Assembly: GCF_000015045.1 (NCBI RefSeq)
Contig: NC_008609.1
Coordinates: 1,665,001-1,729,000 of the forward strand
From: Pelobacter propionicus DSM 2379
GTDB lineage: Bacteria; Desulfobacterota; Desulfuromonadia; Geobacterales; Pseudopelobacteraceae
Reading direction: 5' to 3'
DNA length: 64,000 nucleotides
The translations under genes were made by a program, and so were the position numbers. Positions 43,271 through 62,246 of the stretch are shown piece by piece (position 1 is the first letter of the stretch; every line of letters begins with the position of its first letter). Below the pieces are notes generated by a model, which had not been told where the DNA came from, did no database searches, and saw nothing but the letters and a program-made list of their open reading frames with translations.

Positions 43271-44995
43271 ATGATTTCTGTTATGCAACCATCCAGCTTT
43301 CGCATACTGCTTGTTGACGATGAAGAGGGAATCCGTTTTACTCTGGGATGCCTGCTGAAGAAGGAGGGCTTTCGGGTGGAGGTTGCTGCGGGGCGCGGTG
43401 AAGCTCTTGCCCTGCTGGCTGCCGCCCCTTTTGATCTGGCCCTGGTGGATATCATGCTGGCCGGGGAGAGCGGCATCGGGCTTTTGGGCGATATAAAGAG
43501 TATGTACCCGTCGACGCAGGTAATCATGATCACCGGCCGTCCCGAGGTGGATACCGCGGCGGAAGCGGTCCGGTTGGGGGCATTCGACTATCTCACCAAG
43601 CCGATCCGCCACGAAACCCTGATGGCGGTCAGCCGTCATGCCCTGAGCGCGAAGAAGATGAACGATGAGAGGGAGCTGTATCGCGCCAATCTGGATGCCA
43701 TCTTTCGCACCGTTACGGATTCCATCGTGATGGTGGACCGGGAGGGGTGTCTGGCCCAGTTCAATGCGGCAGCGGGACATCTCTGCGGACTGAACGGCGA
43801 TATGATCGGGATGGATCTGGCTGCCCTCAACCTGAGCTGTAACGGTATGTGCGCCGCCACCCTGCTGGAAACGCTGCGCCGCAATGTCCCCCAGGAATTG
43901 CGGCGATTCGAGTGCCGCAACCGGGAGGGCAAGCCGCGCGTGGCCTCGTTTACCTCCACGCCGGTGGTGGATGCGGACGGAACGGTGGATGGCGCGGTGG
44001 CGGTCATCCGCGACGAGACGCGCCTGGTGGATCTGGAACGCTCCCTGCGTACCAGAAGCACATACCACAACATCGTCGGCAACTCGGCGCCCATGCAGCG
44101 CCTGTTCGCCCTGATCGAGGCGCTTGCCGACGTGCCGACCACGGTTCTGATCAACGGCGAGAGCGGAACCGGCAAGGAACTGGTGGCGGCCGCCCTGCAC
44201 GCCACCGGCGCGCGTTCAGGAGGTCCGTTCGTGAAGGTCAACTGCTCGGCCCTGTCCGAGTCGCTTTTGGAGAGTGAACTGTTCGGGCACGTGCGCGGGG
44301 CGTTTACCGGCGCCATTGCCGACAAGGTCGGCCGTTTCCAGAAGGCCCACGGCGGAACGCTCTTCCTGGATGAGATCGGCGATATCTCGTCTGCCGTGCA
44401 GATGCGGCTTCTGCGGGTCCTGCAGGAAAGCGAGTTCGAGCGGGTAGGGGAGTCTACGCCCCTCCGGGTGGATGTGCGCATCATAGCCGCAACCAACCAG
44501 AATCTGGCCGATAAGGTCAGTCAGGGAACGTTCCGCCAGGATCTCTTCTACCGCCTGAATGTGGTCCGGGTGGTGCTGCCGGCGCTCAGGGAACGCCTGG
44601 ACGACCTTGAACCGCTGGTGGCTCATTTTATTGCAAAGTTCAACGTCAAGTTCGGTCGGGACATTACCGGTGTGTCCAGTGATGCCATGGCTGTCTTCCA
44701 CAGGCACGACTGGCCGGGCAATGTGCGTGAACTGGAGCATGCCATTGAGCATGCCAGCATTCTCTGCAAATCCGATATCATCTCCCTTTCCGACCTTCCG
44801 CAGGATTTGCTCGATTCCCTGCGGGCCGACGACGCTTCCCCGGTTGATGCTCCTGTTGCCCCTTCTTCACGACCGCCTCTTACCCTGGAGGAGGCTCTGG
44901 TGATGACTGGCGGCAACAAGAGCCGCGCCGCCGACCTGCTGGGCATCAGCCGACGCACGGTATACCGGCACCTGGAAGAGTGCCAATCAAAATAG
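43271..44995 (+). CDS. NtrC-family sigma-54-dependent response regulator with PAS domain
   Basis: A 574-residue activator. It has a receiver (residues 10-125; acceptor D60 in ALVDIMLAG, Lys in DYLTKPIR) and an inserted PAS domain (~140-255, AIFRTVTDSIVMVDREGCLAQFNAAAGHLC). The AAA+ domain carries Walker A GESGTGKE, the sigma-54 contact loop GAFTGA and GGTLFLDEIGD. A Fis-type helix-turn-helix (NKSRAADLLGISRRTVYRHLEE) ends it. It activates RNA polymerase-sigma54 from distant sites. The start is 43271 or 43283 (ribosome-site spacing is poor for both). It directly precedes the chemotaxis cluster and is its likely regulator. Confidence 0.93.
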   Translation: MISVMQPSSFRILLVDDEEGIRFTLGCLLKKEGFRVEVAAGRGEALALLAAAPFDLALVDIMLAGESGIGLLGDIKSMYPSTQVIMITGRPEVDTAAEAVRLGAFDYLTKPIRHETLMAVSRHALSAKKMNDERELYRANLDAIFRTVTDSIVMVDREGCLAQFNAAAGHLCGLNGDMIGMDLAALNLSCNGMCAATLLETLRRNVPQELRRFECRNREGKPRVASFTSTPVVDADGTVDGAVAVIRDETRLVDLERSLRTRSTYHNIVGNSAPMQRLFALIEALADVPTTVLINGESGTGKELVAAALHATGARSGGPFVKVNCSALSESLLESELFGHVRGAFTGAIADKVGRFQKAHGGTLFLDEIGDISSAVQMRLLRVLQESEFERVGESTPLRVDVRIIAATNQNLADKVSQGTFRQDLFYRLNVVRVVLPALRERLDDLEPLVAHFIAKFNVKFGRDITGVSSDAMAVFHRHDWPGNVRELEHAIEHASILCKSDIISLSDLPQDLLDSLRADDASPVDAPVAPSSRPPLTLEEALVMTGGNKSRAADLLGISRRTVYRHLEECQSK

Positions 44996-45056
44996 TGGCG
45001 GCAGGGTGGTGAGCAGCGCCACCAAACCGGTTGCCAACAAGGCCGCCGCTATTTTT
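44992..45056 (+). terminator. terminator after the sigma-54 activator gene
   Basis: Arms atagtggcggc (44992-45002, containing the stop codon) and gccgccgctat (45042-45052) pair with one G-T wobble, followed by T5. The long 39-nt loop contains a further ggtgg/ccacc pair. Confidence 0.65.
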
Positions 45057-45128
45057 CGTATGGCAGCTTACGCTCTGTTTCAAACAACATAAAATAATAA
45101 AGTCAGGTGTTTCTCGTTATATTGCTCG

Positions 45129-45209
45129 GAAGAAGGAGTCTGTTTCATGCAGAAGCCCTTCTCCGTCAATAACCTGGCTGCCAAGGTTCGTGATGCCCTG
45201 GATAGCTGA
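45129..45209 (+). pseudogene. remnant of a response-regulator receiver domain C-terminus
   Basis: In frame, the bases read EEGVCFMQKPFS then VNNLAAKVRDALDS and stop. This is the end of a receiver domain as found in hybrid kinases (..LEEGV.FIQKPFS...LA.KVREALD), including the conserved KP(F) motif. Upstream in the same frame no receiver core is recognisable. A GAAGGAG and ATG at 45147 could make a 20-residue peptide, but it is better explained as the surviving tail of a deleted kinase or regulator gene. Confidence 0.5.
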
Positions 45210-45328
45210 AACCGCAATCGACTGACGGGGCCAGTACAGACCTCTGTCCGGTGTCAGCCGCTATGCGTTTCAATCGCTATCCTGAAGAAACCGCTTTAAA
45301 ATAGCAGCTCCGGAATATGACACAGGTA

Positions 45329-45396
45329 CAGGGCTTCACTGTGACATGTCACAACTATTGTGTGACATGTCACAGTGAAGCCCTGTGACATGTCAC
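45329..45396. promoter_or_regulatory. array of three GTGACATGTCAC palindromes within a 25-bp inverted repeat
   Basis: The perfect 12-bp palindrome gtgacatgtcac occurs at 45341-45352, 45362-45373 and 45385-45396, starts 21 and 23 bp apart (about two helical turns). The first two lie in a larger perfect inverted repeat, 45329-45353 versus 45361-45385, with a 7-nt centre. The array is ~110-180 bp upstream of a candidate sigma-54 promoter, where NtrC-type activators bind. Half-sites TGTGA/TCACA also recall Crp-family boxes, but with a 4-bp instead of 6-bp centre. Confidence 0.75.
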
Positions 45397-45497
45397 CCGC
45401 CTTCGTTGTCACAAGCTCTCCCCCCACACCCGGCACAGAGACGCACCAGCCCGCCAGCGCGCGCTTTGAAACGTCGTTCATACTCTTTATGCCTCTT

Positions 45498-45512
45498 TGG
45501 CACATATGTTGA
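45498..45512 (+). promoter_or_regulatory. candidate sigma-54 promoter of the che cluster
   Basis: TGGCAC (45498-45503), 5 bp, then TTGA (45509-45512), against the consensus TGGCAC-N5-TTGC. The GG-to-G(C) spacing is exact (12 bp between first Gs). The last base departs from consensus. Transcription would start near 45524, 47 bp before cheW. Confidence 0.55.
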
Positions 45513-45570: not shown

Positions 45571-46086
45571 ATGGCTGAAGAGTTGCAGGCAACCCAGTAT
45601 CTCACGTTTGTTCTCGACAGCGAGGTGTTTGCAGTGGATGTGGCCAGGGTTCGGGAAATCCTGGAGTATACGGCGGTTACGAAGGTGCCGAAGACACGGA
45701 ACTACATGCATGGTGTGATCAATCTCCGTGGCAGTGTGGTGCCGGTGGTTGACATGCGGGTGCTCTTCGGACTTCCCGAGACGGATACCACCGTCAATAC
45801 CTGCATTATTGTCATGGAGGTTACCGCCGAAGGTTCATCCCTCATAATGGGGGCTCTGGCCGATTCGGTGCGTGAGGTGATGGAGTTGGATCCCGGCCAG
45901 ATCGAACCGGCCCCCAAGGTGGGCTCGCGGGTCAAAACCGATTTTATCAGCGGCATGGGCAAGCAGGGTAACGAGTTTATCATGATTCTTGATATCGACA
46001 GGATGCTGCCGGATGAGGCGACAAGTTCCCTCGCGGAAATGGGTGGAATGGCAACGTCAATGGGTGAAGCGGAACTGATGGCATAG
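45571..46086 (+). CDS. cheW: CheW coupling protein (first copy)
   Basis: A 171-residue adaptor joining receptors to Che[55 protein letters not shown] is the CheW SH3-like core, with NLRG motif and D. A strong GGGGAGG site precedes the ATG. It has a 15-residue C-terminal tail ([20 protein letters not shown]) beyond the core. First gene after the candidate sigma-54 promoter; the large receptor gene follows by 38 bp. It is closely similar to the second CheW at 59.5 kb. Confidence 0.94.
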
Positions 46087-46124
46087 GGCGTGGAATGAAA
46101 ACAATGGCAAAGGAGAACAAAAAC

Positions 46125-49100
46125 ATGTTCAAGGACACGGGGCTGAAAAAAATGCTGATGAGCGGGTTTATCGCAATGGCGCTCATTGGCGGGATACTCG
46201 GTGGTGTCGGGGCGAAGCTGGCACTGGGCTCAACCTCCGGTAGCGCACCACTGTTTGTGCTGGCGCTGGTGGCGGTGGGAGTGGTGCTGGCCATCGTACT
46301 GGGCAGCAGTATCGTACGTGCCGTACTGGGTCAGCTTGGGGCTGAAACCGGTGAGGTGGCGGCGATTGCCAATCTGCTTGCCTCCGGCGATTTGAGCCGT
46401 GACATACAGGTGGCTCCCGGCGACAGCACCAGCGTCATGGCTGCCCTGAAGAGGGTGTCTGATTCGGTTCGATCCGTTGTGAGCGATGCTTCGACACTGT
46501 CCGATGCCGCCATCGCCGGGAAACTCTCGGTCCGGGCTGATGCGGCCAGGCACACGGGCGAATTCAGAAGGATCGTCGAGGGGGTGAACGGCACCCTGGA
46601 GGCTGTTGTCGAGACGGTTCACGATGCTGCAAAACGTATCGATCTGCTGAGTCGTGGCGAAATCTTCGAAGAGATAACAGACGGTTACCGAGGAGACTTT
46701 GGAGAACTGCGTGAAAGCCTCAACCGCTGCAAACAGGCCAACGAGGCGCTGCGCGTCGACATCCGCACCATGTGCATCGCTTCCTACGAAGGGCACCTGG
46801 ATACCCGCGTCGACCCGGACAAGCATCAGGGCTTCTTCTCCAGGGCCGTTGCCGGCCTGAACAACCTCTTCGAAAACTTCACCGCTCCGCTCAAGGTGAC
46901 CACTGACTACATCGAGACGATCAGTCACGGTGCACTTCCGGAAGTAATCACCGAAGAGTACCGCGGCGACTACAACAACATAAAGCAGAGTGTCAATCGC
47001 TGCATCGAGGGGCTGGGCGGTCTCGTGGAGGCCAACAATGTGCTGCAGAAGATGGCCGTCAACGATCACACCCAGAAGGTGGAAGGCCAGTACCTGGGCA
47101 TTTACGCCGAAGTCGGCCATGCCGTCAATGACGTCAGGGAGAGGTTGCTGCGCGTGGCTCAAACCGCACGAAGCATCGCCTGCGGCGATACCAGCGACCT
47201 GGAAATCTACAAAGCCATCGGCGATGGCAAGGGTCGCCGCAGCGAGAACGATCATCTGGTGCCGAATTTCATTGGCATGATGGAAGCCATAAACGCTCTG
47301 GTCAGTGATGCCAACATGCTAGCCGATGCGGCGGTTCACGGCAATTTCAACACCCGCGCCGACCTGAGCAAGCACCAGGGTGATTTCCGTAAGATCGTGG
47401 CCGGCGTCAATGCCACCCTGGACACGGTTGTGGACAAGGTTGTCTGGTACGAGGCGATCATCGACGCGGTACCGTTCCCGATCCACGTCATCGACATGGA
47501 CATGAACTGGACCATGCTGAACAAGGCCTTCGAGAAGCTGATGATTGAAAGCGGAGCGGTTCCGGACCGCAGGGCGGCGGTGGGCAAGCCGTGCAGCAGC
47601 GCCGCGGCCAACATCTGCAACAGCGAGAAGTGCGGCATTCGCCAGCTGCAGAAGGGCGTTGGCGAGAGCTTCTTCGACTGGCACGGTGCCCACTGCAAAC
47701 AGGACACCTCCTACCTGCTCAACAAGAATGGCGAGAAGATCGGCTACGTGGAGGTGGTCACCGACCTCACCCCGATCCTCAGGAACCGCGACTACACCCA
47801 CGCCGAGATCGAGCGCATGGCCGACAACCTGACCAGGCTGGCGTCCGGCAATCTGGAGCTGGATCTGCAGGTGAAGGAAGCCGATGAGCACACCGTCGCC
47901 ACCAGGGAAGACTTCGTCAAGATCAACGAGAGTCTGGCCAGGGTGAAGGAGGCGGTCGGCTCCATGATCGCCGATACGGACATGCTGGTGCACGAGGCCA
48001 TCGCCGGCAGGCTGGAGACCCGCGCCGATGCCGACAAACACCAGGGCGAATACCGCAAGATCGTGGCCGGCATCAACCAGACCCTGGACACGGTTGTGGA
48101 CAAGGTTGTCTGGTACGAGGCGATCATCGACGCGGTACCGTTCCCGATCCACGTCATCGACATGGACATGAACTGGACCATGCTGAACAAGGCCTTCGAG
48201 AAGCTGATGATTGAAAGCGGAGCGGTTCCGGACCGCAGGGCGGCGGTGGGCAAGCCGTGCAGCAGCGCCGCGGCCAACATCTGCAACAGCGAGAAGTGCG
48301 GCATCCGCCAGCTGCAGCGGGGCATTGGCGAGAGCTACTTCGACTGGCACGGATCCCAGTGCAAGCAGGACACCTCCTATCTGGTCAACAAGCGCGGCGA
48401 GAAGATCGGCTATGTGGAGGTGGTCACCGATCTGACCCCGATCCTCAGGAACCGCGACTACACCAACTGTGAGATCGAGCGCATGGCCGACAACCTGACC
48501 AGGCTGTCTGCCGGTAACCTGGAGCTGGATCTGCAGGTCAAGGAAGCCGATGAACACACCGCCGCCACCAGGGAAGGTTTTGTCAAGATCAACGACAGTC
48601 TCACCAAGGTTAAGGAGGCGGTTGGCTCCATGATCGCCGATACGGACATGCTGGTGCACGAGGCCATCGCCGGCAGGCTGGAGACCCGTGCCGATGCCGA
48701 CAAGCACCAGGGCGACTACCGCAAGATCGTGGCAGGCATCAACCAGACTCTGGACACCGTGGTGGATAAGGTTATGTGGTATGAAGCAATCATCGATGCG
48801 GTGCCATACCCACTCCACGTCATCGACATGGACATGAACTGGACCATGCTGAACAAGGCCTTCGAGAAGCTGATGATTGACAGCGGAGCGGTTCCGGACC
48901 GCAGGGCGGCGGTGGGCAAGCCGTGCTCGAGCGCGGCGGCCAACATCTGCAACACCGAGAAATGCGGCATCCGCCAACTGCAGAAGGGCGTCGGCGAGAG
49001 CTACTTCGACTGGCACGGTTCCCAGTGCAAGCAGGATACATCCTACCTGCTCAACAAAAAGGGCGAGAAGATTGGCTATGTGGAGGTTGTTTCGGATCTT

Positions 49101-50597
49101 ACCCCGATCCTCAGGAACCGTGACTACACCAACTGCGAGATCGAGCGCATGGCGGAGAACCTGACCAGGCTGTCTGCCGGTAACCTGGAGCTGGATCTGC
49201 AGGTCAAGGAAGCTGATGAACACACCGCCGCCACCAGGGAAGGTTTTGTCAAGATCAACGACAGCCTCACCAAGGTGAAGGAGGCGGTCGGCTCCATGAT
49301 CGGCGATACTAACCTGCTGGTGAATGCTGCACTGGAGGGAAGACTTGCGACCCGTGCCGATGCCGGCAAGCACCAGGGTGACTTCCAGAAGGTGGTCTCG
49401 GGGATCAACAGCACCCTTGACGCGGTCATCGGACCGCTGAACATGGCTGCCGACTACGTTGCCCGCATCTCCAGGGGAGACATGCCGAGCGCTATCAGCG
49501 ACACCTACAACGGCGACTTCAACGACATCAAGAACAACCTCAACGTACTGATCGACGCCATCGGTGATATCACCGCCAACGCCAAGCAGATTGCCCAGGG
49601 GAACCTGATGGTCGACCTGAAGAAACGTTGCGAAGATGACGAACTGATGGAATCCCTGGCATCCATGGTGGAGAAGCTCAGGGAAGTGGTCACGGAAGTC
49701 CAGTCAGCTGCCGATAACGTGGCGGCCGGCGGCCAGCAGATGTCCGCCACGGCCCAGCAGATGTCCCAGGGCGCCACCGAGCAGGCCGCCAGCGCCGAGG
49801 AAGTCTCCTCCAGTATGGAAGAGATGGCCTCCAGCATCCGCCAGAACACGGACAATGCCCTGCAGACCGAGAAGATCGCCATCAAGTCCGCCTCCGACGC
49901 CCGCGAAGGGGGCAGGGCGGTAACGGAGACCGTGTCTGCCATGAAGGAGATCGCCACCAAGATCTCCATCATCGAAGAGATCGCCCGCCAGACCAACCTG
50001 CTGGCGCTGAATGCCGCCATCGAGGCTGCCCGTGCCGGCGAGCACGGCAAAGGCTTCGCGGTGGTAGCCTCTGAGGTAAGAAAACTTGCCGAACGGAGTC
50101 AGGCTGCTGCCGGCGAGATCAGCCAGCTCTCCACCACCAGCGTGGCAATCGCCGAGCAGGCCGGCGAGATGCTGGACAAGATGCTGCCGGACATCCAGAA
50201 GACCGCAGAACTGGTGCAGGAAATCAGCGCCGCCAGCCGTGAGCAGGATAGCGGCGCCGAGCAGATCAACAAGGCCATCCAGCAGCTGGACCAGGTAATC
50301 CAGCAGAACGCCTCTGCCAGTGAGCAGATGGCCTCCACCACCGAGGAACTCTCCAGCCAGGCCGAGCAGATGAAGGCCACCATAGCATTCTTCGCGCTGG
50401 ACGACCGCAGGCAGAAGGCCCTGCCGGGACCGCGAAATGCGGCGCCCAGGCAAATCACAGCCGGTCCGCGCCGTCAGGCTCCGGTGGTAAAGAAACCGGC
50501 AATGCCCCCAGCGAGAAGCCCGAAGAGTGGGGGGGTGAACCTGGATCTGGGACCCATCGGGCCTGACAGCCTCGATAACGAGTTTGAAAAATTCTAA
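46125..50597 (+). CDS. giant methyl-accepting chemotaxis protein with three Cys-PAS modules
   Basis: A ~1490-residue receptor. Two membrane helices lie close together (~8-28 and ~35-60) with almost no periplasmic loop, so sensing must be cytoplasmic or in the membrane. A HAMP-like array follows (repeated [28 protein letters not shown]). Three tandem 222-residue modules each contain a PAS-like domain with four Cys (C-x7-C-x4-C-x20-[21 protein letters not shown]). The end is the standard signalling coil ([31 protein letters not shown]) and a terminal EFEKF. The start 46125 is preferred because AGGAG lies 9 nt upstream; ATGs at 46095 and 46104 are alternatives. Confidence 0.93.
47421..49418 (+). 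repeat. three 666-bp tandem repeats inside the receptor gene
   Basis: Units start at 47421, 48087 and 48753, an exact 666-bp (222-codon) period. Units 1 and 2 are identical at the DNA level, including synonymous positions, over 47421-47638 versus 48087-48304. Unit 3 is more diverged (e.g. [15 protein letters not shown] becomes [15 protein letters not shown]). Recent duplication or gene conversion explains the identity. Confidence 0.9.
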
Positions 50598-50667: not shown

Positions 50668-50711
50668 AACCGGTCCGAGAGATAACTGTTTTTTGTGGAG
50701 AGTGTGAAGGT

Positions 50712-50748
50712 CAAGACCTCCGAGGTTTCGACAGTCTCGGAGGTCTTG
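50712..50748. repeat. perfect 13-bp stem hairpin upstream of the hybrid kinase
   Basis: caagacctccgag (50712-50724) pairs with ctcggaggtcttg (50736-50748) around an 11-nt loop. No T-run follows. It could be a 5'-leader structure of the kinase mRNA or a dispersed repeat. Confidence 0.5.
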
Positions 50749-50787
50749 TTCATGTCCCCCTTGTTTAGTCAGGCATGTACAAACAAC

Positions 50788-51954
50788 ATGGCAATGAGAA
50801 TGAGAACGATTCGCGAAGAAAACATGAGCCGGTCGCAAAAACTGGAGTGCATCGGGACACTGGCTGGTGGAGTTGCCCATGATTTCAACAATATCCTGAC
50901 GGTAATCATCGGCGCCTGTACCCTGCTGGAAATGAACGCGGCCGATTATCCCGATCAGATGCCGTTCGTCTCCCGGATTCGCAATTATGCCGAACGGGCC
51001 GCGCAGCTTACCCAAGATCTTCTGATATTCAGTCGCAGGCAGGCGGTTGTCATGGGGCCCGAGAATCTAGTGGAGGTCTTTCATGACATGCATCGTTTTC
51101 TGGGGAGCATCATCGGCGAAGATATTCAGCTGATAACCGACCAGCAGGAGAAAACGGTGATGGTTATGGTTGATCTCGGGCAGATTGAGCAGGTTCTCAT
51201 GAATCTGGCGGCCAACTCCCGTGACGCCATGCCCCGCGGCGGTGTTCTGCGCATGCGTCTGTCGCGGGTTACGAATGATGGAGCTCTGCCCCATCTAGAA
51301 GGTTGCCCTTTGGGTGACTATGCCCTGATGACGGTATCCGATACCGGAACAGGAATCGACAGGGAGAACCTCTGCCGAATCTACGAACCTTATTTCACCA
51401 CCAAGGAACTGCACGCCGGAGCCGGTCTCGGCCTCTCCGTCGTGTACGGCATCATCAGCCAACATAACGGCGCCATACATGTGCAGAGCAGTCCGGGTGA
51501 GGGAACACTATTTAGCATATACCTGCCGATATGCGATCAGGAGGAGATGGTGATGTCAGAAACTGGCGCAGGGCTATTACCGGGGGGCACGGAAACCATC
51601 CTGTTGGTTGACAGTGACCCGGTCATGTTGAAAATCAATGCCAGCCTTCTGGAGGGGGCGGGCTACATGGTCCTGACTGCTTCGGATGGTCTGGAAGCGC
51701 AGGAACTGCTTCGACGCGGGCAGGAAGCGATTTCGCTGGTTGTGCTTGATGAGGCGCTGCTTCCCGTACATGATCTGGAGACCTGCTGGCGGCAGCTTGC
51801 AAACGATGACAAAATCAAGTTCATGCTGCTCCAGGGAACCGACGACGCGGGGACAGCGCGTACGATGAAGGGGGCTGCCAGGATCACGAAGCCTCTTGAT
51901 CCCCTGCTGCTTTTGGAACAGGTTCGCGCCTTGATCGATGGGCGTACCCTCTGA
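50788..51954 (+). CDS. soluble hybrid histidine kinase (HisKA-HATPase-receiver)
   Basis: About 388 residues. It begins almost directly with HisKA (KLECIGTLAGGVAHDFNNILTVI, phospho-His in VAHDFNN). HATPase follows with NLAANSRDAMPRGG, DTGTGID and GAGLGLSVVYGI. A C-terminal receiver has acidic pocket VDSD, acceptor Asp in LVVLDEALLP and Lys in ITKPLDP. There is no sensor domain or membrane helix, so input must come from a partner, perhaps the receptor array. The start is unclear: 50788, 50824 and an upstream GTG at 50695 are all in frame, none with a good ribosome site. Confidence 0.82.
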   Translation: MAMRMRTIREENMSRSQKLECIGTLAGGVAHDFNNILTVIIGACTLLEMNAADYPDQMPFVSRIRNYAERAAQLTQDLLIFSRRQAVVMGPENLVEVFHDMHRFLGSIIGEDIQLITDQQEKTVMVMVDLGQIEQVLMNLAANSRDAMPRGGVLRMRLSRVTNDGALPHLEGCPLGDYALMTVSDTGTGIDRENLCRIYEPYFTTKELHAGAGLGLSVVYGIISQHNGAIHVQSSPGEGTLFSIYLPICDQEEMVMSETGAGLLPGGTETILLVDSDPVMLKINASLLEGAGYMVLTASDGLEAQELLRRGQEAISLVVLDEALLPVHDLETCWRQLANDDKIKFMLLQGTDDAGTARTMKGAARITKPLDPLLLLEQVRALIDGRTL

Positions 51955-52029
51955 TATGGACGGAGCGTGACATTTTTTTTTTCAATGGTATAGTGCAGGC
52001 AATAAATTTTATTTTGGAAGGTAGTGTCA

Positions 52030-52497
52030 ATGAAATCAAGGTTATCCCTCGTTGTCTCCGTTGTGGTTCTTTTCGCCTCGATCGCTGCGTTCGCAGCTCC
52101 CGCCGTACTGCTCCCCAAGGGGTACCGTTCCTGGAAAAAGAGTGAACGGAAAGTCGTTACCGACAAGAGTTCTCTTTTCTACGGAATCCATTACATCTAT
52201 GCCGATACAAAGGCAATGAAGGGCTACCAGGCTGGCAACCGTTTTGCCGAAGGGAGCCGCATCATTGTGGAGCACTTCAACATCAAGGGTAATCCCGCAG
52301 TTGACGGCCCGAAGAACATGGTCGTCATGATGCGCAAGGACAAACGTTTCCAAAAGACCGGCGGCTGGCAATTCTCCGGGTTTGGCGCCAACGGCAAGCC
52401 GAGTGGAATCGATCCGGTTGCCACCTGCTTTGGCTGCCACCTGAAGGACGCGTCACAGCGGGACTTCGTGATCTCCACAGTAAAAGACTTCAAGTGA
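52030..52497 (+). CDS. cytochrome P460-family monoheme protein
   Basis: A 155-residue exported protein (signal peptide MKSRLSLVVSVVVLFASIAAFA). A single CFGCH haem motif lies near the C-terminus (PVATCFGCHLKDASQRDFV) and the P460-type core includes VVMMRKDKRFQKTGGWQF. In nitrosifiers P460 oxidises hydroxylamine using a Lys-haem cross-link; which Lys corresponds here cannot be settled by eye. Family members in metal reducers have no proven role. An AAGG site precedes the ATG. It is placed in the middle of the chemotaxis cluster. Confidence 0.82.
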   Translation: MKSRLSLVVSVVVLFASIAAFAAPAVLLPKGYRSWKKSERKVVTDKSSLFYGIHYIYADTKAMKGYQAGNRFAEGSRIIVEHFNIKGNPAVDGPKNMVVMMRKDKRFQKTGGWQFSGFGANGKPSGIDPVATCFGCHLKDASQRDFVISTVKDFK

Positions 52498-52679
52498 CGT
52501 CAGGCGAATCATTACGCACTGACACGGGCCCATTGATGTTGAACCTCATTGGGCTTTCACGTCTTCTGGAACGAACCTTGGTTGCTGTTTATTAATCTGG
52601 AAGCTGTTATTGTAATTCCAATTACGTATTCTCGCCGGTATGGCAGCGCGATCCGGTTTGCGGAGATGAAGGGACAACC

Positions 52680-54533
52680 ATGTCACTAGCAATTGAATCC
52701 TTTTCGAAAAAGAACGACTCGGCATCGGTTGCCAAAACAGTCGCCTCCTGGCGGAAGAGTATTGCTCCCGCGATTGAGACGCTGCGAGTGCTGGCCGGGA
52801 CAACCGAAGACGAGTTCCTGCAGATGGGGTCGCAGTTGCAGTCATTTTACCAGCGCTCGGTTGACATTACCCGTATGGCCGGTGAGCTGATGGATATCGT
52901 TTCCGGTGAACGCCTGCAAATGCTGATTGGCCGTCTGCGTCAGATGATGTCGGATATGGAAGAGTATCTGGCCGGCGCGCGCAGCCGCAGCGGCGATAGT
53001 TTCAAGACCCTGGAACAGGTGCAAAATCTGCTGGAGCAGTTGACCACACCCCTCGAGGGATTCCAGAAGATGAACAAGACCTTGCGTATGCTGAGCATCT
53101 CGACCAAAATCGAGAGTTCTCGTTTGGGGGATTTGGGCAGTGGTTTTGTTAATCTTGCCATGGATGTTGAAAAACTCTCCCATCAGGTCAACGAAAAGTC
53201 GGCAACCATCCTGAATCATCGCCAGTTGCTGGCAGTGACAATCCAGTCGAACCTCAAGTCCGTTTACTCCAGTGAAGCAGCTCAGGATGCCGAGGTGCGG
53301 GGGGCGCTTTCCAGAACCGCGGCCAGCCTTCAGGAGCTGATTGCCGTCACCGATCGCTGCTCCAGTTTCGGTTCCATGGTTTCCGAAGTTTCCGCGGATG
53401 TCAGCGCCAATATCAGTGAGGTTGTCTCATCGCAGCAGACCCATGACATAACACGCCAGCAGGTGGAGCATGTCGTCGAGGCACTGGAAAAGCTGTCAAC
53501 CAACCTTGCTGTCGTGGAGGAAGCTGTTCTGGACGATGAAAGTGGCAGGGCCCTGGTTATCGAGTCCGGGGATGTGTGCGAACTTCAGGAAGCACAACTC
53601 CGTTTCGCCACTTCGGAGTTGTATGCGGCGGTCTGTACAATCGTTGAAAATCTCCGTGATGTTGCCAGCAAGCAGAGTTCCATGGCCCATGAATCCCTCT
53701 CCGTAGCCGGTGTGGCCGACTCCGGTAGCGGTTCGTTCGTTGATGATCTGAGGCAGGGCATGTCATCCGTCACCTCGGTGCTGGTCGGCTGCGCCAAGTC
53801 CGATCACGATATCGCGACTACCATGCAGAGCGTGGCCGCCACTATCCAGCAGATTACCGGCTTTGTCGAAGATATCGAGTATATCGGTTCCGAAATAGAC
53901 CTGATTGCACTTAATTCGCAGATCAAGGCGGCTCATACCGGTCGGGAAGGGGCGGCTCTGGGAGTGCTGGCCGAGGCGATTAAACGTCTGTCTGACGAAG
54001 CGGTCAGGCAGACGGAATCAGTCGCCTCGACGCTCAACGTGATTCATACCACGACCGAGCACCTTACGGCCGAATCCTTTGGCGATGAGGCAGGATCGGG
54101 TGGGCTGATCTCGGCCATGGAAGCCGAGTTGTCTGAAATCCTCCACACCCTGGGCGTCATGAACGACGAACTCTTCGGTCTGCTGGCCGGCCTGGGGGAA
54201 AATGTGCAGTCCCTGACCGAGGATGTGGAGTCGGCTACCTCCGGAATCGATGTGCATGAGCGGATCAAGAACATGGCTGGCGGTGTGCTTACGGATCTGG
54301 AGCGGATCGTTGAACAGGCGCGTCATATAGAGCCGGCCAGCAGTCAGTTTAAACAGAATCTGCGTCACATGGAAGAACACTACACCATGGAGAGCGAACG
54401 TCACATCCATGAAGCCATTGCCCGCAAGCGAGGCGGCAATCATGCGACCAGCGCGCAGCAGCCTGAAACATCCACGGCCCAGACCGATGCGCAGAGCGAT
54501 TCCGAATTTGGCGATAACGTTGATTTGTTCTGA
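52680..54533 (+). CDS. soluble receptor-like helical protein with HDITRQQ motif
   Basis: A 617-residue protein, almost entirely heptad-rich helix, with no signal peptide or membrane segment. It resembles an MCP cytoplasmic rod, but the hairpin tip lacks the usual signalling consensus. It instead has IGSEIDLIALNSQIKAAHTGREGAALGVLAEAIKRLSDEA, an altered version. Two noteworthy motifs are SSQQTHDITRQQVEHVVEALEKL (residues ~258-280), similar to the Q-D-x-x-x-Q phosphatase helix of CheZ, and GIDVHERIKNM near the end. It is followed closely by STAS, cheY and cheA, so it likely works in this pathway. An AAGGGA site precedes the ATG. Confidence 0.75.
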   Translation: MSLAIESFSKKNDSASVAKTVASWRKSIAPAIETLRVLAGTTEDEFLQMGSQLQSFYQRSVDITRMAGELMDIVSGERLQMLIGRLRQMMSDMEEYLAGARSRSGDSFKTLEQVQNLLEQLTTPLEGFQKMNKTLRMLSISTKIESSRLGDLGSGFVNLAMDVEKLSHQVNEKSATILNHRQLLAVTIQSNLKSVYSSEAAQDAEVRGALSRTAASLQELIAVTDRCSSFGSMVSEVSADVSANISEVVSSQQTHDITRQQVEHVVEALEKLSTNLAVVEEAVLDDESGRALVIESGDVCELQEAQLRFATSELYAAVCTIVENLRDVASKQSSMAHESLSVAGVADSGSGSFVDDLRQGMSSVTSVLVGCAKSDHDIATTMQSVAATIQQITGFVEDIEYIGSEIDLIALNSQIKAAHTGREGAALGVLAEAIKRLSDEAVRQTESVASTLNVIHTTTEHLTAESFGDEAGSGGLISAMEAELSEILHTLGVMNDELFGLLAGLGENVQSLTEDVESATSGIDVHERIKNMAGGVLTDLERIVEQARHIEPASSQFKQNLRHMEEHYTMESERHIHEAIARKRGGNHATSAQQPETSTAQTDAQSDSEFGDNVDLF

Positions 54534-54548
54534 CAGGAGATAGAAAAG

Positions 54549-54896
54549 ATGGCACTTGCGAGTACCTGCCGTGAAAACGGCGAAATCGTCATATCGAGCG
54601 GAAACCGCCTGACGATCGAAAATGTGGGCGAATTTGCGCGGCTGGTCCGGGAAGGGTTGGAGGTATCTCAACAGGTGTCGGTCGAGTTTGAACCGGAGAT
54701 CGATATCGACATCACCGGGATACAGGTTCTCTGTTCGGCCTGCAAGACAGCCGCGGCGAGCGGCAAAACCTTTTCGTGCTCCGGTCCGCGATCCCGGGCT
54801 CTGGTCGAGGTGATCCAGGCCTGTGGCGCCGAGCGCCACGCAGTCTGTACACAGAATAACAATTCTACCTGTAGGTGGTTTGGAGGTGTGGAGTAA
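54549..54896 (+). CDS. STAS-domain protein
   Basis: A 115-residue anti-sigma-antagonist-like protein. SGNRLTIENVGEFARLVREGLE and EIDIDITGIQVLCSACKTAAASGK follow the STAS pattern. The phosphorylatable Ser of SpoIIAA (D-S-S-G) is replaced by Thr (DITG), which may still be modified. Its stop overlaps the cheY start (TAATG), so the two are coupled. STAS proteins in che clusters may act in phospho-switching or scaffold control; no kinase partner is obvious besides CheA. Confidence 0.8.
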   Translation: MALASTCRENGEIVISSGNRLTIENVGEFARLVREGLEVSQQVSVEFEPEIDIDITGIQVLCSACKTAAASGKTFSCSGPRSRALVEVIQACGAERHAVCTQNNNSTCRWFGGVE

Positions 54897-55261
54897 TGGC
54901 AAAAGTAATCATGACTGCCGATGATTCGGCCAGTGTTCGCCAGATGGTGGCGTTTACCCTCAAGCAGAACGGCTATACCGTCGTGGAAGCGGTGGATGGA
55001 CGTGATGCCCTGAACAAGTTGAATGCGCAGAAGGTCGATATGCTGCTGACCGACCTGAATATGCCAAATCTGGATGGCATCGGCCTGATCAAGGGAGTGC
55101 GGGCCGGTTCCCTGAACAAGTTCATCCCGATCGTCATGCTGACTACCGAATCCCAGGACTCGAGGAAAGCCGAGGGCAAGGCGGCCGGCGCCACCGGGTG
55201 GATTGTCAAGCCGTTCAAACCCGAGCAGCTGATTGCCGTTATCAAGAAGGTACTGGGGTAG
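54896..55261 (+). CDS. cheY: CheY response regulator
   Basis: A 121-residue single receiver domain. Acidic pocket TADDSAS, acceptor D53 in LLTDLNMPNLDG, switch Thr in VMLTTES and Lys in WIVKPFKPEQL are all intact. It takes phosphate from CheA. It overlaps the STAS gene by 1 bp (TAATG), with GGAGGTG upstream. The following 105 bp contain an imperfect hairpin ending in T6. Confidence 0.95.
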   Translation: MAKVIMTADDSASVRQMVAFTLKQNGYTVVEAVDGRDALNKLNAQKVDMLLTDLNMPNLDGIGLIKGVRAGSLNKFIPIVMLTTESQDSRKAEGKAAGATGWIVKPFKPEQLIAVIKKVLG

Positions 55262-55366
55262 GGCTGGAAAATCTGGTGAGGAGTGAAGGGCAAAGAGTGA
55301 GGCCATACCCCTTTATTCCCCACCAGTTTTTTCTTCACCTCTTACCCACACACCGAGGTGTTATTT

Positions 55367-57490
55367 ATGATGGAACAAGCCATAGCAACCTACCGTGAGG
55401 AGGCCAGTGAGCTGTTAGCAGAACTGGAGAGCTCGCTTCTGGAACTGGAGGACACGCCGGACGACGATGACCTTATTAATCGCGTCTTCCGCGCCATGCA
55501 CACCATCAAGGGTTCCGGCGCCATGTTCGGGTTCGACGAGATAGCCTCATTCACCCACGAGGTGGAGACGGTCTTCGACATGGTACGCAATGGGAAGATG
55601 AGCGTGACCAAGCGCCTGCTTGACCTGACCCTCAGGTCGCGGGACCATATCTTGGCGCTTTTGGATGCTTCCGCCGGTTCGGGGGAGGTTGACCGCAGCC
55701 AGGGCGACGAGATCATAGCCAGTCTGCAGCAGTTGCTGCCGCAGGCCGTGGGAGGTGGCGGCGAAGTAGAGGCGGCGCCCAGTCAGAGTGAGTCTGGCGA
55801 AGCTGAGGCTACCGAGGAAAAAACCTGGCGTATCCGCTTTCGCCCCACTCGCGAACTGCTGCTGTTCGGTACCAATCCGGTCTCTCTGATCAATGAACTG
55901 CGCAGTCTGGGGGAGTGCCATGTGGTGGCCCAGTTGGACGAGATCCCGCTGCTTGACGACCTGACGGCGGAACACTGCTATCTGTACTGGGATATCATCC
56001 TGACCAGCACTCGTGGCGAAGATGCCATCAAGGACGTGTTCATCTTCGTAGAGGATGACTGCGATATCAAGATCCAGCTGATCGACAGCGGTGGCCTGAT
56101 CGACCGTGAGGATGGCTACAAGAAGCTGGGTCACATCCTGGTGGAGCGTGGCGACCTCTCCGTCGAGGAGATGCAGACGGTTTTAACCCAGCAGAAGCGC
56201 TTTGGAGAGCTGCTGGTGGAGCAGGGAATTGTCGACCCCGAGAAGGTCCAGTCGGCCCTGATTGAGCAGCAGCACGTCAAGGCCGTGCGTCAGGAGCGGA
56301 GCGCCGCTCCCCAGGCGGATGCCGCTGCCAGTATCCGTGTCCCTGCCGAACGGCTGGATCAGCTGATCAACCTGGTGGGGGAGATGGTCACGGTGCAAGC
56401 CCGGCTTTCCCAGGTTTCATTGGCTTGTGGCGATGCCACCTTCATTTCCATCTCCGAAGAGGTGGAGCGACTCACCAACGAGTTGCGCGATACGGCCCTG
56501 AACATCCGTATGCTGCCTATAGGCAGTACCTTCAGTAAGTTCAAACGACTGGTGCGCGACCTTTCCCAGGAACTGGGCAAGGAAATCGAGATGGAGACTT
56601 TCGGGGCCGAGACCGAACTGGACAAGACCGTCATCGAAAAGCTGAACGACCCGCTGGTGCATATCATCCGCAACAGCATCGACCACGGCATCGAGATGCC
56701 CGATGTTCGGCGGGCCGCCGGAAAGCCCTCCGTCGGCACCGTCTGCCTGGGGGCCGTACATTCCGGCGACTCGGTTCTGATAACCATCCGTGATGACGGT
56801 GCCGGCCTGGACCGGGACACTATCCGCGCCAAGGCTGTTGAGCGGGGCCTTCTGGCCGCCACTGCCGAGGTGTCCGACAAGGAAATCTATTCGCAGATCT
56901 TTGCCCCCGGGTTCTCCACCGCGCAGAAGATCACCAACATCTCCGGCCGTGGTGTTGGCATGGATGTGGTTAAACGCGGCATCCAGGATCTGCGTGGCAC
57001 CATCGAAGTTGACAGCGTGCGGGGAAGCGGCACCACCATCACCCTGCGGATTCCCCTGACCCTGGCCATCATCGAGAGTCTGCTGGTCAAGATCGGCGAC
57101 AGCCACTTCGTACTGCCCCTGGCCGCGGTGGAGGAGTGCGTGGAACTGACCCGGGAGGATGTGGAGGCAGCCCATGGACGCAACCTGGCAATCATCAGGG
57201 GCAATCTCACGCCGTTCATCTCGCTGCGGGAACAGTTCGAGATTGACGGTGATCGTCCTGATATCGAGCAGATCGTGATCGTCTCGGTGAATGGGATGCG
57301 CATCGGATTCGTGGTCGATTTTGTGGTTGGCGAGCACCAGACCGTGATCAAACCGCTGGGGCGGTTATACCAGGACATCAAGGGGGTATCGGGCGCCACC
57401 ATCCTGGGCGACGGTTCCGTGGCCCTGATCCTCGACCCCGGCGTGTTGACCCAGTGCGCCGAAATGGCCGAGGCCAGCCTGACTCAGTGA
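55367..57490 (+). CDS. cheA: chemotaxis histidine kinase CheA with an unusual inserted domain
   Basis: A 707-residue kinase. HPt domain with H45 (AMHTIKGSGAMFGF), then an acidic linker and a P2-like region. Next comes an insertion (~254-303) reading LGHILVERGDLSVEEMQTVL...FGELLVEQGIVDPEKVQSAL, the two-repeat pattern of MshE/GspE N-terminal domains. The dimerisation helix pair, HATPase (VHIIRNSIDHGIE, DDGAGLD, GRGVGMDVV) and C-terminal CheW-like domain follow. The start 55367 sits 6 nt from GAGGTG. It is the only CheA in the window, so both receptors, both CheW and the soluble receptor-like protein may report to it. Confidence 0.95.
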   Translation: MMEQAIATYREEASELLAELESSLLELEDTPDDDDLINRVFRAMHTIKGSGAMFGFDEIASFTHEVETVFDMVRNGKMSVTKRLLDLTLRSRDHILALLDASAGSGEVDRSQGDEIIASLQQLLPQAVGGGGEVEAAPSQSESGEAEATEEKTWRIRFRPTRELLLFGTNPVSLINELRSLGECHVVAQLDEIPLLDDLTAEHCYLYWDIILTSTRGEDAIKDVFIFVEDDCDIKIQLIDSGGLIDREDGYKKLGHILVERGDLSVEEMQTVLTQQKRFGELLVEQGIVDPEKVQSALIEQQHVKAVRQERSAAPQADAAASIRVPAERLDQLINLVGEMVTVQARLSQVSLACGDATFISISEEVERLTNELRDTALNIRMLPIGSTFSKFKRLVRDLSQELGKEIEMETFGAETELDKTVIEKLNDPLVHIIRNSIDHGIEMPDVRRAAGKPSVGTVCLGAVHSGDSVLITIRDDGAGLDRDTIRAKAVERGLLAATAEVSDKEIYSQIFAPGFSTAQKITNISGRGVGMDVVKRGIQDLRGTIEVDSVRGSGTTITLRIPLTLAIIESLLVKIGDSHFVLPLAAVEECVELTREDVEAAHGRNLAIIRGNLTPFISLREQFEIDGDRPDIEQIVIVSVNGMRIGFVVDFVVGEHQTVIKPLGRLYQDIKGVSGATILGDGSVALILDPGVLTQCAEMAEASLTQ

Positions 57491-57781
57491 TGTCCTGGCG
57501 ACGAGTCGCTCGGAAGGGGCATCATCGTTCGCCATGTTTCTGCAAACCGCACCGCTTCAAGTGGTAACGATAAAGGCCAAAAAGCAAGCAGCGGTGTTTG
57601 GGTGAAAATATTGTCTTATGTGTTATTGTTCATGCGTGGGGGTGGACTAAGGCTAGCTTAATAGTGAAAAAGTATCACGGAACGGGTTTATGTACCCTTT
57701 TGTTGATTCCAGCAGATGACGGGCAGCAGTGCTGTTGTTTCATTCAGATAGCTTCACTTAATCCTAAACGGAGGTGGAAAG

Positions 57782-59458
57782 ATGCTGAATAATTTGAACA
57801 TTGGCGCCAAACTGATTTCCGGATTTGTTGTTGTTGCCCTCATTGCTGGGGTGCTCGGTCTTGTCGGCATCAGAAAGATCCACCAGATCAATGCCGCCGA
57901 CAAATTGCTCTATGAGAAGATTACGGTTCCCACTGCCCAGTTGCTGACCATCTCGACCAATTTTCAGAAGATTCGCGTCAATGTGCTCTACATCCTTAGG
58001 AGCAGCGTCAGGAGTGAAAAGGAAAGGCTGATTGAGGGGATCAAAGGATTCCAGGAGAGTATCGACAAGGAGGCGGCTCTCTTCGAAAAGACCATCCTGA
58101 CCGAAGAAGGCCGCAAGATGTTTGCCGACTTCAACAGGGAACGGGCGAACTACTACAACCTCATGGACCGTTTGCTGCAATTCTCCCTGGCCGACAATGT
58201 CAGGGAGGTCCAGGCACTGCTGGATTCGGGGCAGTTTGCAAAAATAGCCGGAGAATTCAGCGACACCATCGACAACCTGATTGATGCAAAGCTGGCGCAG
58301 GCCCAAAAGACATCCGAAGAAAACGCGGCCACATCCGCCGGTGCGACGCGTCTGATGACGGTAGTGGCTCTTGCCGCTGTGTTGCTGGCCGTCGGGATGG
58401 GTGTTTTTATCAGTCGTGCCATAACCAGACCCATACATGAGGCCGTGGCCGTGGCCGATGCCCTGGCCAGGGGAGACTTGACCATCTCTGTCGTTGCCAA
58501 ATCCCGTGATGAAACCGGTCAGATGATGAGTTCTATCTCTAACATGGTAGAAAAACTCAAGCAGGTCGTGGGCGATGTCATGGGGGCGGCCAGTAACGTG
58601 GCTTCCGGCAGCCAGCAGCTTTCGGCAACAGCCCAACAGCTCTCCCAGGGGGCTACCGAACAGGCGGCCAGTGCCGAGGAGATCTCCTCCAGCATGGAAG
58701 AGATGGCATCCGGTATCCGACAGAACACCGATAATGCCATGCAGACCGAGAAGATAGCCGTCAAGAGCTCGGTGGACACCAAGGAAGGGGGCAAGGCGGT
58801 CACCCAGACCGTTGCAGCCATGAAGGAAATCGCCACCAAGATAGGCATCATCGAAGAAATCGCCCGTCAGACCAATCTGTTGGCGCTCAATGCCGCCATC
58901 GAGGCTGCCCGTGCCGGCGAACATGGCAAGGGTTTCGCCGTTGTCGCCTCTGAGGTCCGCAAGCTAGCCGAACGGAGCCAGGCTGCCGCCGGCGAGATAT
59001 CCGGCCTCTCCAGCCGCAGTGTGGCCATTGCCGAGCAGGCTGGCGAGATGCTGGTCCAGATGGTTCCGGATATCCAGCGCACCGCCGAACTTGTGCAGGA
59101 AATCAGCGCCTCCAGCAGGGAGCAGGACAGTGGCGCCGAGCAGATCAACAAGGCTATTCAGCAGCTTGATCAGGTCATTCAGCAGAATGCGTCGGCCAGT
59201 GAGCAGATGGCTTCCACCTCGGAAGAACTCTCCAGCCAGGCCGAGCAGTTGAGCGAAGCAATTTCTTTTTTCAAGCTGGACGACATGTATGCCCGCATCC
59301 CTCGGCAGCGTAACGACAGGCAGACGAGTCGTAGCCAGCTTGCCCTTAACAATGGCCGGAGTAACTCCGTGCCCGCAAAACGTACCAACAACGGCATTAA
59401 TCTGGAACTGGGATTGGAGTGTCCGGACAAGATTGATGATGAATTCGAGAAATACTAG
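57782..59458 (+). CDS. methyl-accepting chemotaxis protein with four-helix-bundle sensor
   Basis: A 558-residue receptor: membrane helix (~10-31), periplasmic helical domain of about 150 residues (4HB_MCP type, [31 protein letters not shown]), second helix (~193-213), HAMP ([21 protein letters not shown]) and a signalling rod almost identical to that of the giant receptor. The C-terminus is DDEFEKY, matching EFEKF of the other receptor: a likely CheR/CheB tether. AACGGAGGTGG precedes the ATG. The 291-bp upstream gap contains no other gene but must hold its promoter. Confidence 0.95.
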
Positions 59459-59470
59459 AGGGGGGCCGCC

Positions 59471-59944
59471 ATGGGCGTTGCCAGCATAACTGAATCAATC
59501 CAATATCTTACCTTTAAACTTGCTGACGAAATATTTGCCCTCGACGTTGCCAAGGTTCGGGAAATACTCGAAGTTACGACAATAACCAAGGTGCCTCAGA
59601 CCCCTGATTTCATGAGAGGGGTAATCAATCTGCGTGGCAGTGTTGTGCCGGTCGTGGACATGCGGCTCAAATTCGGCATGAGCATGACCGAACAGACCGT
59701 CAATACCTGTATTATCGTGGTTGAAATCAGTCTTGACGGCGATTCCCTTGTGCTGGGTGCCCTGGCCGATTCGGTCCAGGAAGTGGTCGAGATGGAGGCG
59801 GAAAAGATAGAGCCGGCACCTCATATCGGTACAAAGTTGAACACCGATTTCATCAGGGGGATGGGTAAGGTAGATGATCATTTCGTGATGATCCTGGATA
59901 TCGACAGGATCTTTTCTTCCGCCGAGCTGGCTGATTTGACCTGA
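59471..59944 (+). CDS. cheW: CheW coupling protein (second copy)
   Basis: A 157-residue Che[61 protein letters not shown] closely matches the first copy, differing mainly in the shorter C-terminus. It starts 12 bp after the receptor gene with AGGGGGG upstream. Duplicate CheW proteins paired with two different receptors suggest either dosage or receptor preference. Confidence 0.94.
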   Translation: MGVASITESIQYLTFKLADEIFALDVAKVREILEVTTITKVPQTPDFMRGVINLRGSVVPVVDMRLKFGMSMTEQTVNTCIIVVEISLDGDSLVLGALADSVQEVVEMEAEKIEPAPHIGTKLNTDFIRGMGKVDDHFVMILDIDRIFSSAELADLT

Positions 59945-59972
59945 CCCATGGACAGACGATGAGGATGCTGCC

Positions 59973-60842
59973 TTGACAAATACCCGGGATACTCTCTCGC
60001 CACAATTACCTGCCACGATGAAGGATCGCGTATTCCAACGTTTCAGCAGTTTTATCTTTGATAATGTGGGCATCAAGATGCCGCCCGCCAAGAAGACCAT
60101 GCTTGAGGCGCGTCTGCAGAAGCGCCTCAAGGCTTTGGGAATAGCGACGTTTGAGGAATACGGCGATTTTGTGTTCAGTCGCCAGGGGCACGACAGTGAA
60201 CTGGTGCACCTGATCGACGTGGTAACCACCAACAAGACCGATTTTTTCCGCGAACCGGCACATTTCGATTTTCTGACAAAGATTGTTCTGCCCCAGGCCC
60301 TGTCCTCAAACCGGATGTTGCTGCGTGATCCTTTCCGGATCTGGAGCGCGGGATGCTCCAGCGGCGAAGAGCCGTATACCATGTCCATGGTCCTGTCGGA
60401 GTTCGCCGATCACAATCCAGAGTTCAGGTTTTCCATACTGGCTTCGGATATTAGTACCCAGATTCTGCAGACTGCCAGGACCGCCGTCTATTCCGAGGAG
60501 AGGACCGATACCATCCCGCTCAATATCAAGAAGAAGTATCTGATGAAGAGCAAGAACCCTGCCCTGTCTCTGGTGCGAATAAATCCCCAACTGCGTTCGA
60601 CGGTTTCTTATCGCCGAATCAATTTCATGGATGACGATTTCGGCGTTGCCGAAAAAATGGATGTTATCTTCTGCCGCAATGTGGTTATCTACTTCGACAA
60701 ACCAACCCAGCAGACCCTGATGAGGAAATTCCATCGACAGTTGCGAACGGGAGGCTACCTGTTTATCGGACATTCGGAAACCCTGAGTGGCCTGGATGTG
60801 GATTTTAGACCGGTGGCGTCAACGGTATACAGAAAAGAATAG
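59973..60842 (+). CDS. cheR: CheR protein-glutamate methyltransferase
   Basis: A 289-residue SAM-dependent enzyme methylating receptor glutamates. An N-terminal helical domain is followed by the SAM site IWSAGCSSGEEPYTMSMVL, ILASDISTQIL, VIFCRNVVIYFDKPTQQ and GGYLFIGHSETL; the beta-subdomain for pentapeptide docking lies between. The TTG at 59973 is preferred because GAGGA lies 7 nt upstream; the next ATG is 60018, which also leaves the fold intact. Substrate receptors in the cluster end in EFEKF/EFEKY. Confidence 0.92.
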   Translation: MTNTRDTLSPQLPATMKDRVFQRFSSFIFDNVGIKMPPAKKTMLEARLQKRLKALGIATFEEYGDFVFSRQGHDSELVHLIDVVTTNKTDFFREPAHFDFLTKIVLPQALSSNRMLLRDPFRIWSAGCSSGEEPYTMSMVLSEFADHNPEFRFSILASDISTQILQTARTAVYSEERTDTIPLNIKKKYLMKSKNPALSLVRINPQLRSTVSYRRINFMDDDFGVAEKMDVIFCRNVVIYFDKPTQQTLMRKFHRQLRTGGYLFIGHSETLSGLDVDFRPVASTVYRKE

Positions 60843-60980
60843 GGAACGTGCGACCACGGCTAGCTGCCGTGTGAGAGAATAGGCAACAGCGGTCAGGCAG
60901 AACAGGATGTGCCCGCTCCTTTTGTTGGATTCTTCGTGCGCCGGGATACCTCTATCTCTGCTTATGTCATGAAAAAAGTT

Positions 60981-61110
60981 AATTGCCTTACATACCCACA
61001 ACATCTTTCTCAAGCCGGGGGAGGTGTTGTCGCCAACAAATCTGCCTTGGTCTCCACCGTGTTGAGGGCGTGCGTGGCGGAAACTGCACTTTTGTACTCG
61101 GGATGGGGTT
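60981..61110 (+). pseudogene. cheD: decayed cheD between cheR and cheB
   Basis: Frame 1 reads HNIFLKPGEV; after one missing base the next frame reads VVANKSALVSTVLRACVAET then ALLYSGWG. Joined, this is the CheD N-terminal core (..YLKPGEV.VA..P..VSTVLGSCVAV.LY). The catalytic Cys remains but GSC has become RAC, and the following His-bearing half (GG..H..LP) is absent. The site is the normal cheR-cheD-cheB position. The 320-bp gap holds no other gene. Confidence 0.7.
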
Positions 61111-61163
61111 GTATTCCTTCATCGTGTGGGTGGAAAAAATGATCCGGTTACGGAGGTGAAACC

Positions 61164-62234: not shown

Positions 62235-62246
62235 AGGATTGTTTTT

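Follow-up and report, generated by a model that had tools for sequence, protein, structure and literature searches.

A palindrome array ahead of a predicted sigma-54 promoter of a chemosensory cluster in Pelobacter propionicus, and the activator that probably binds it

We propose, with considerable confidence, that the activator encoded at 43271-44995 of the 64,000-nucleotide stretch of Pelobacter propionicus DSM 2379 DNA analysed here (the window) would bind a nearby array of three palindromes and, with sigma-54, drive the promoter of cheW and the adjoining gene for a methyl-accepting chemotaxis protein (MCP). The three palindromes would be the enhancer (upstream activating sequence) of the sigma-54 promoter predicted at 45498-45512, which would transcribe cheW together with the gene of the large MCP and, probably, genes beyond it. 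Dimers of the activator would occupy the three sites, R562 being the likely contact residue of the dimer. Phosphorylation of the receiver domain would presumably lead the activator to oligomerise, the DNA between array and promoter would loop, and the GAFTGA loops of the AAA+ domain would remodel the sigma-54 RNA polymerase at the -24/-12 element. At the level of sequence, comparison shows the site-promoter-cheW layout, its tie to this activator group and a co-variation between recognition helix and operator. Enhancer binding by the neighbouring activator, as put forward in the original prediction, is supported by the co-occurrence of sites and activator, by the recurring layout, by a relative in which the two are unlinked and by the helix-operator co-variation.

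The palindrome array, the promoter and the gene upstream

Three exact copies of GTGACATGTCAC are found within 56 bp, at 45341-45352, 45362-45373 and 45385-45396. These are the three identical 12-bp palindromes of the original prediction, and the genome-wide search suggested along with it, now run, finds no exact copy outside the array in 4.24 Mb, so that these three are the only ones in the 4,241,119 bases. When one mismatch is allowed, nine places in the genome match, six of them beyond the array, against three for the reversed control. The fullest description of the sites is a 14-mer. Copies 1 and 2 read TGTGACATGTCACA and copy 3, which ends in C, reads TGTGACATGTCACC; the predicted operator sites, located by sequence search and assigned to no strand, are thus 45340-45353, 45361-45374 and 45384-45397. 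Their centres are 21 and 23 bp apart, in agreement with the claimed two helical turns, and the sites would therefore lie on one face of the DNA. The perfect inverted repeat said to enclose all three copies does exist (45328-45386), with arms of 26 nt (45328-45353 and 45361-45386) instead of 25 bp and a 7-nt gap, but only copies 1 and 2 fall within it, copy 3 sharing no more than a 2-bp overlap with it. The repeat at 45328-45386 and the array of another genome, G042 (contig C114, locus L182), are both long and perfect (26 and 24 bp) and their flanks are unrelated, as if quasi-palindrome correction, the mechanism that we infer, had produced both of them.

The predicted promoter, TGGCAC-N5-TTGA (45498-45512, + strand), comes from a motif scan and aligns with 12 other regions. 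It has one mismatch to TGGCAC-N5-TTGC, so that the near-consensus label suits the -24 half, which is perfect, but not the -12 half, which is TTGA and not TTGC. The array is indeed upstream of it; the distances are somewhat shorter than the 110-180 bp first given, since the site centres lie about 107, 130 and 151 bp before the start of the -24 element, the smallest value being that of copy 3, and some 130-175 bp ahead of where transcription is expected to start. Shuffled sequence would give 6.3 matches with no more than one mismatch and the window contains four, which is not significant by sequence alone; the promoter is credible by its position and conservation. The genome encodes rpoN (Sigma54_DBD match, E 7e-63, at C3:1017496).

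The gene upstream of the array (43271-44995, + strand) encodes, according to Pfam matches and motif positions, a protein of 574 aa with a receiver-PAS-AAA+-Fis-type helix-turn-helix (HTH) architecture. Its receiver domain (PF00072) covers residues 12-119, its AAA+ domain (PF00158, E 2e-69) carries GAFTGA at residue 343, in line with the predicted GAFTGA-containing activator, and its Fis-type HTH (PF02954) covers residues 539-569. The recognition helix residues are S560-R561-R562-T563; R562, whose identity varies together with operator position 4 in the helix-operator comparison, is encoded by the codon at 44954-44956 (+ strand). Members of this activator family were found in Desulfuromonadales, in other Thermodesulfobacteriota and in Nitrospirota.

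The first 14-mer starts 345 bases past the activator stop codon. Relatives often have 1-82 bp between the activator and their first site, so the spacer (44996-45340) between activator and array may have lost a gene. Within this spacer, 29 codons (45120-45209, + strand) resemble by eye a remnant of a receiver-domain C-terminus, with no significant match among the loci compared, and a signal-peptide-like stretch is present on the minus strand near 44993-45061.

Recurrence of the sites with the activator group

The relatives of the activator that were compared comprise 30 loci of 117 related genomes and 79 loci of a public genome set, three partial loci being dropped. Their surroundings were scanned with TGTNNCATGNNACA, allowing at most one mismatch in its ten fixed positions, and loci with the same first 150 downstream bases were counted once. 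In the 400 bp that follow the activator gene, a site was present in 16 of the 34 orthologues with at least 60% identity, in 25 of 45 at 47-60% and in none of 16 below 47%, against averages of 0.8, 1.0 and 0.25 in shuffled downstream regions. For all deduplicated orthologues at or above 47% identity, this amounts to 41/79 downstream and 1/78 upstream, with about two expected in shuffles. Autoregulation was considered and rejected, sites upstream of the activator gene being found in 1 of 94 orthologues (1/33, 0/45 and 0/16 by identity class).

The sites appear to follow the target promoter and not the activator gene, because in five loci they lie beyond an intervening gene. In L039, L040, L045 and L047 a FapA-like gene (by Pfam in L039, by eye in the others) follows the activator and the sites come after it, directly ahead of cheW in L040 and L045 and of an MCP gene in L039 and L047; in L050 they lie beyond a gene of 766 aa, near the contig end.

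The cheW search covered at least 72 genomes, at least 45 of them in the window's family, where 60 stretches upstream of listed cheW homologues were scanned, all but one with E <1e-50; this set includes neither a further listed match in G015 nor the second cheW of the window. At least one site was found ahead of cheW in 14 of these 60 stretches, compared with a mean of 1.3 and a largest value of 4 in 100 rounds of shuffling. Together with the window and two regions in the same-genus relative G001, this gives 17 cheW regions with sites. In 14 of them the sites are followed by a -24/-12-like element that has no more than two mismatches; these are all 13 that were aligned and one of the other four. 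The element of the aligned regions is of the TGGCA[C/T] or CGGCAC type and, in 12 of the 13, lies 95-121 bp from the last site; in G030, measuring from a weak third site gives 81.5 bp and measuring from the second gives about 105. Two or three sites, spaced by 21-24 bp, are present in eleven of the aligned regions, and G002 and G034 have a single one. In the four regions left out of the alignment (G019, G044, G015 and G021) the distance from the sites to the cheW match is 302-433 bp. G021 has TGGCATATTCCTTGG at 128 bp beyond the last site; G019, G044 and G015 have no element with up to two mismatches within 60-180 bp after it, which weighs slightly against the main reading.

Presence of the site follows presence of the activator. 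Of 24 genomes with the activator, 15 have a TGTNNCATGNNACA site before a scanned cheW, and of 13 without it none does (Fisher p 0.00023, uncorrected for kinship), a genome being counted as having the activator at a best E of 1e-170 or lower and the tallies being combined by hand. The other nine activator-bearing genomes have no site ahead of a scanned cheW. In G010, G022, G031, G043 and for the second copy in G004, a site follows the activator gene itself, so that the target may differ there. The pattern of a tandem pair of sites was found in 6 of the 117 genomes, and the reversed control gave 0.

Sites and activator gene are unlinked in G001, a draft genome in 240 contigs whose contamination is estimated at 6%. 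Its activator, 80% identical to that of the window, is on contig C179, with no site behind it, and two cheW-MCP operons on contigs C236 and C122 each have a -24/-12 element and a set of three sites spaced by 21-22 bp. These arrays lie at about 7522-7578 of L130 and 1650-1706 of L131; two such operons compare with one in the window, and transposase-like ORFs (185-1236, by eye) are found just upstream of the array in L131.

With respect to further targets in the Pelobacter genome, TGTGNCATGNCACA with at most one mismatch matches eight places, the three of the array included, against six in the reversed control, and no second target therefore stands out by motif search. Elsewhere in the family, the exact GTGACATGTCAC occurs within TGTGACATGTCACA at 9765 of L076, about 2 kb from the activator and just before an ORF at 9846 that is a possible second target. 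Another observation concerns some Nitrospirota and one Nitrospinia, in which the activator is followed by small Cys-rich proteins with a CP...DCYC...SQ pattern (L062, 7870-8136; also L065, L076 and L079). The two checked (L062 and L065) have no Pfam match, a -24/-12-like element precedes the small genes in some cases, and these genes are possibly another target of the activator family.

Co-variation of recognition helix and operator

In the helix LLGISRRTVYR, the residue that follows SR varies among orthologues and tracks base 4 of the operator half-site, the position left free in the site search. Counted by half-sites, Arg goes with G in 88 of 92, Met with A in 18 of 26 (C in 7, T in 1), Leu with A in 5 of 6, Pro with A in 6 of 6 and Cys with C in 3 of 4. 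When 50 activator rows are scored by their commonest base, all 34 with Arg have G and all 16 with Met, Leu, Pro, Cys or Gln have A or C. Besides these 50 there were 26 rows without a site where scanned, and the helix was unreadable in L065 and L093; 11 loci had been dropped by hand as second copies and further near-identical rows by script, and the scanned stretch was set at previously seen sites for L016, L019, L029, L035, L038, L039, L040, L045, L047 and L050. On a tree built without the HTH, residue and base change six times each. The independent pairs on well-supported branches are concordant in four of four (sign test p 0.125), so the event count is small. In a follow-up of 20 further genes, four lacked a readable helix and four lacked a site in the stretch scanned, and 11 of the 12 with a site fit the rule, the sites of G002 and G034 having been seen previously and G069_C209 being apparently the same contig as L043. 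G018, with Ser and a mixed G/A site, breaks the simple rule. The Met-bearing activator G033_C41 has no site in its own stretch, and A-type sites are found ahead of the cheW of that genome. Two paralogues of G001 differ accordingly: the one with an SRCT helix has its own TGTC site, TGTCGCATGCGACA, and the TGTG sites at the che operons belong with the SRRT protein. Behind the A-type sites of L039, L040, L045, L046 and L047 the only promoter-like element is TGGCAC-N5-[AG]TGT, with two mismatches, and behind those of L085 there is none under three mismatches.

Which protein reads the palindromes? One possible explanation is that they are bound by another regulator, some other sigma-54 activator or else an unrelated repressor, and that the neighbouring activator is a bystander. 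The genome does have other sigma-54 activators (17 matches in G000, this activator included), and the sites of G001 are not adjacent to the activator gene. SRRT recognition helices are common among such activators, so another of them could share the site. We nevertheless regard this explanation as unlikely, since sites ahead of cheW are absent from every scanned genome without the activator group (13/13) and base 4 of the operator tracks the helix residue of this particular activator. Such co-variation is to be expected if the activator contacts the operator directly with its own helix; a bystander regulator or an RNA hairpin would hardly account for it.

The hairpin reading, according to which the inverted repeat works as RNA and ends the activator transcript as a terminator or attenuator, is less probable still. 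The array strand does fold to -60 kcal/mol (z -8.1), and the longest perfect repeat reaches 26 bp in the window and 24 bp in G042, but in 10 of 13 regions it does not exceed 16 bp, with G042 alone among the 12 other compared regions having an arm of more than 17 bp. In addition, the array is not among the places listed by the terminator scan, and the base that varies in the operator follows a protein helix. We rejected the hairpin on the short repeats and the result of the terminator scan; the array would also be absent from the cheW message, because the expected start point is downstream of it. A site for a CRP/FNR-type regulator, suggested by the likeness of the half-site letters TGTGA...TCACA to the familiar CRP consensus, has hardly any probability and was rejected, because CRP sites have a 6-bp gap between half-sites while the gap here is 4 bp, which puts the half-sites out of CRP register, and because position 4 varies with the activator's helix.

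The chemosensory cluster and related systems

The first gene behind the predicted promoter is cheW (45571-46086, + strand; Pfam CheW), followed after 8 bp by the gene of an MCP of 1500 aa (46095-50597, + strand; Pfam and ORF positions). This MCP has PAS and HAMP matches and three tandem modules of 222 aa starting at residues 452, 674 and 896, neighbouring modules being 92% and 86% identical in amino acids and each having several Cys. Next comes a HisKA-HATPase-receiver kinase (50695-51954, + strand; by Pfam, the receiver scoring 29.2 bits, just below the cut-off of 30.2). The rest of the cluster (52024-63479, + strand; Pfam and ORF positions) encodes, in order, a cytochrome P460, an MCP-like protein, a STAS-like protein whose Pfam match is under the cut-off, a CheY-like receiver, CheA, an MCP, CheW, CheR, CheB and an EAL-HDOD protein. 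The whole cluster extends over 18 kb, and internal gaps of about 183, 291 and 321 bp leave room for further promoters.

Where might the phosphoryl group of the activator come from? The window has no kinase gene directly before the activator; many Nitrospirota loci have a kinase-like gene there, with 6 bases between its end and the activator gene. By similarity and eye, the gene before the activator is deaminase-like and on the opposite strand in L039, L040, L045, L046, L047 and L085 and kinase-receiver-like in L041 and L044; in L035 it is a sensor kinase. The kinase at 50695-51954 is a candidate for the activator's kinase, because its relatives (56-57% identity) are found behind the MCP gene in L038 and L048. 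A broader proposal, which we consider doubtful when all its parts are taken jointly, is that the residue at the R562 position (R; M, L, P or Q; C) sets the operator base (G; mostly A; C) across the activator family in several phyla and so would keep paralogous circuits separate within one genome, as with SRRT/TGTG and SRCT/TGTC in G001, and that the activator, with no kinase gene beside it here, would be phosphorylated by a kinase from its own chemosensory target operon, thereby closing a positive loop.

Several known systems resemble parts of this arrangement. In Desulfovibrio vulgaris, where motifs were compared for 33 sigma-54 activators, the accessible part of the report describes conserved motifs that precede -24/-12 promoters and often lie close to the activator gene, and regulons of one to four operons for most activators (PMC4641369). 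The present case shares with them the motif before a -24/-12 element, here a predicted one, the small regulon and the TGT/ACA half-sites, which occur in three motif groups there; the gaps of those groups are 9, 11 and 12 bp as given in that part, whereas here the gap is 8 bp, the core is CATG and the target is chemosensory (PMC4641369). For Geobacter, sigma-54 promoters have been predicted upstream of che clusters (Tran et al. 2008, PMC2577667), so that che clusters of related bacteria had already been assigned to sigma-54 by sequence; the main text of that article does not contain 'palindrom', and its accessible part names no activator or enhancer (PMC2577667). In Myxococcus, according to the portion of the paper available, CrdS and the Che3 system set the phosphorylation of CrdA, likewise an NtrC-type response regulator tied to a chemosensory system; the chemosensory output there acts on the regulator, while the evidence here is for a regulator controlling che transcription (PMC3510030). 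LuxO of Vibrio, also of the NtrC family, is described in the available excerpt as binding through its HTH at sites that are cooperative and lie about 100 bp before the sigma-54 site, its targets being quorum-regulatory small RNAs and the biology a different one (PMC11407668).

We found no report of this palindrome in the open-access literature. Neither GTGACATGTCAC nor TGTGNCATGNCACA as text occurs in open-access papers among the matches listed, and no listed title is on this system. No open-access paper on a conserved chemotaxis element in Geobacter was found, and a Geobacter RpoN paper has the word 'chemotaxis' once in its accessible text, within the reference list (PMC2725144). Work on helix-operator co-variation in this activator family was absent from the open-access titles listed.

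The switch is of an ordinary bacterial kind, and its standing as a new example is well supported. It indicates how one chemosensory cluster of Geobacter-like bacteria is probably switched on, and an activator family without a described operator in the open-access literature gains a concrete operator and target. The most useful part of the finding is the series of helix-operator variants, a natural matched series for understanding how Fis-type helix-turn-helix domains choose their DNA.
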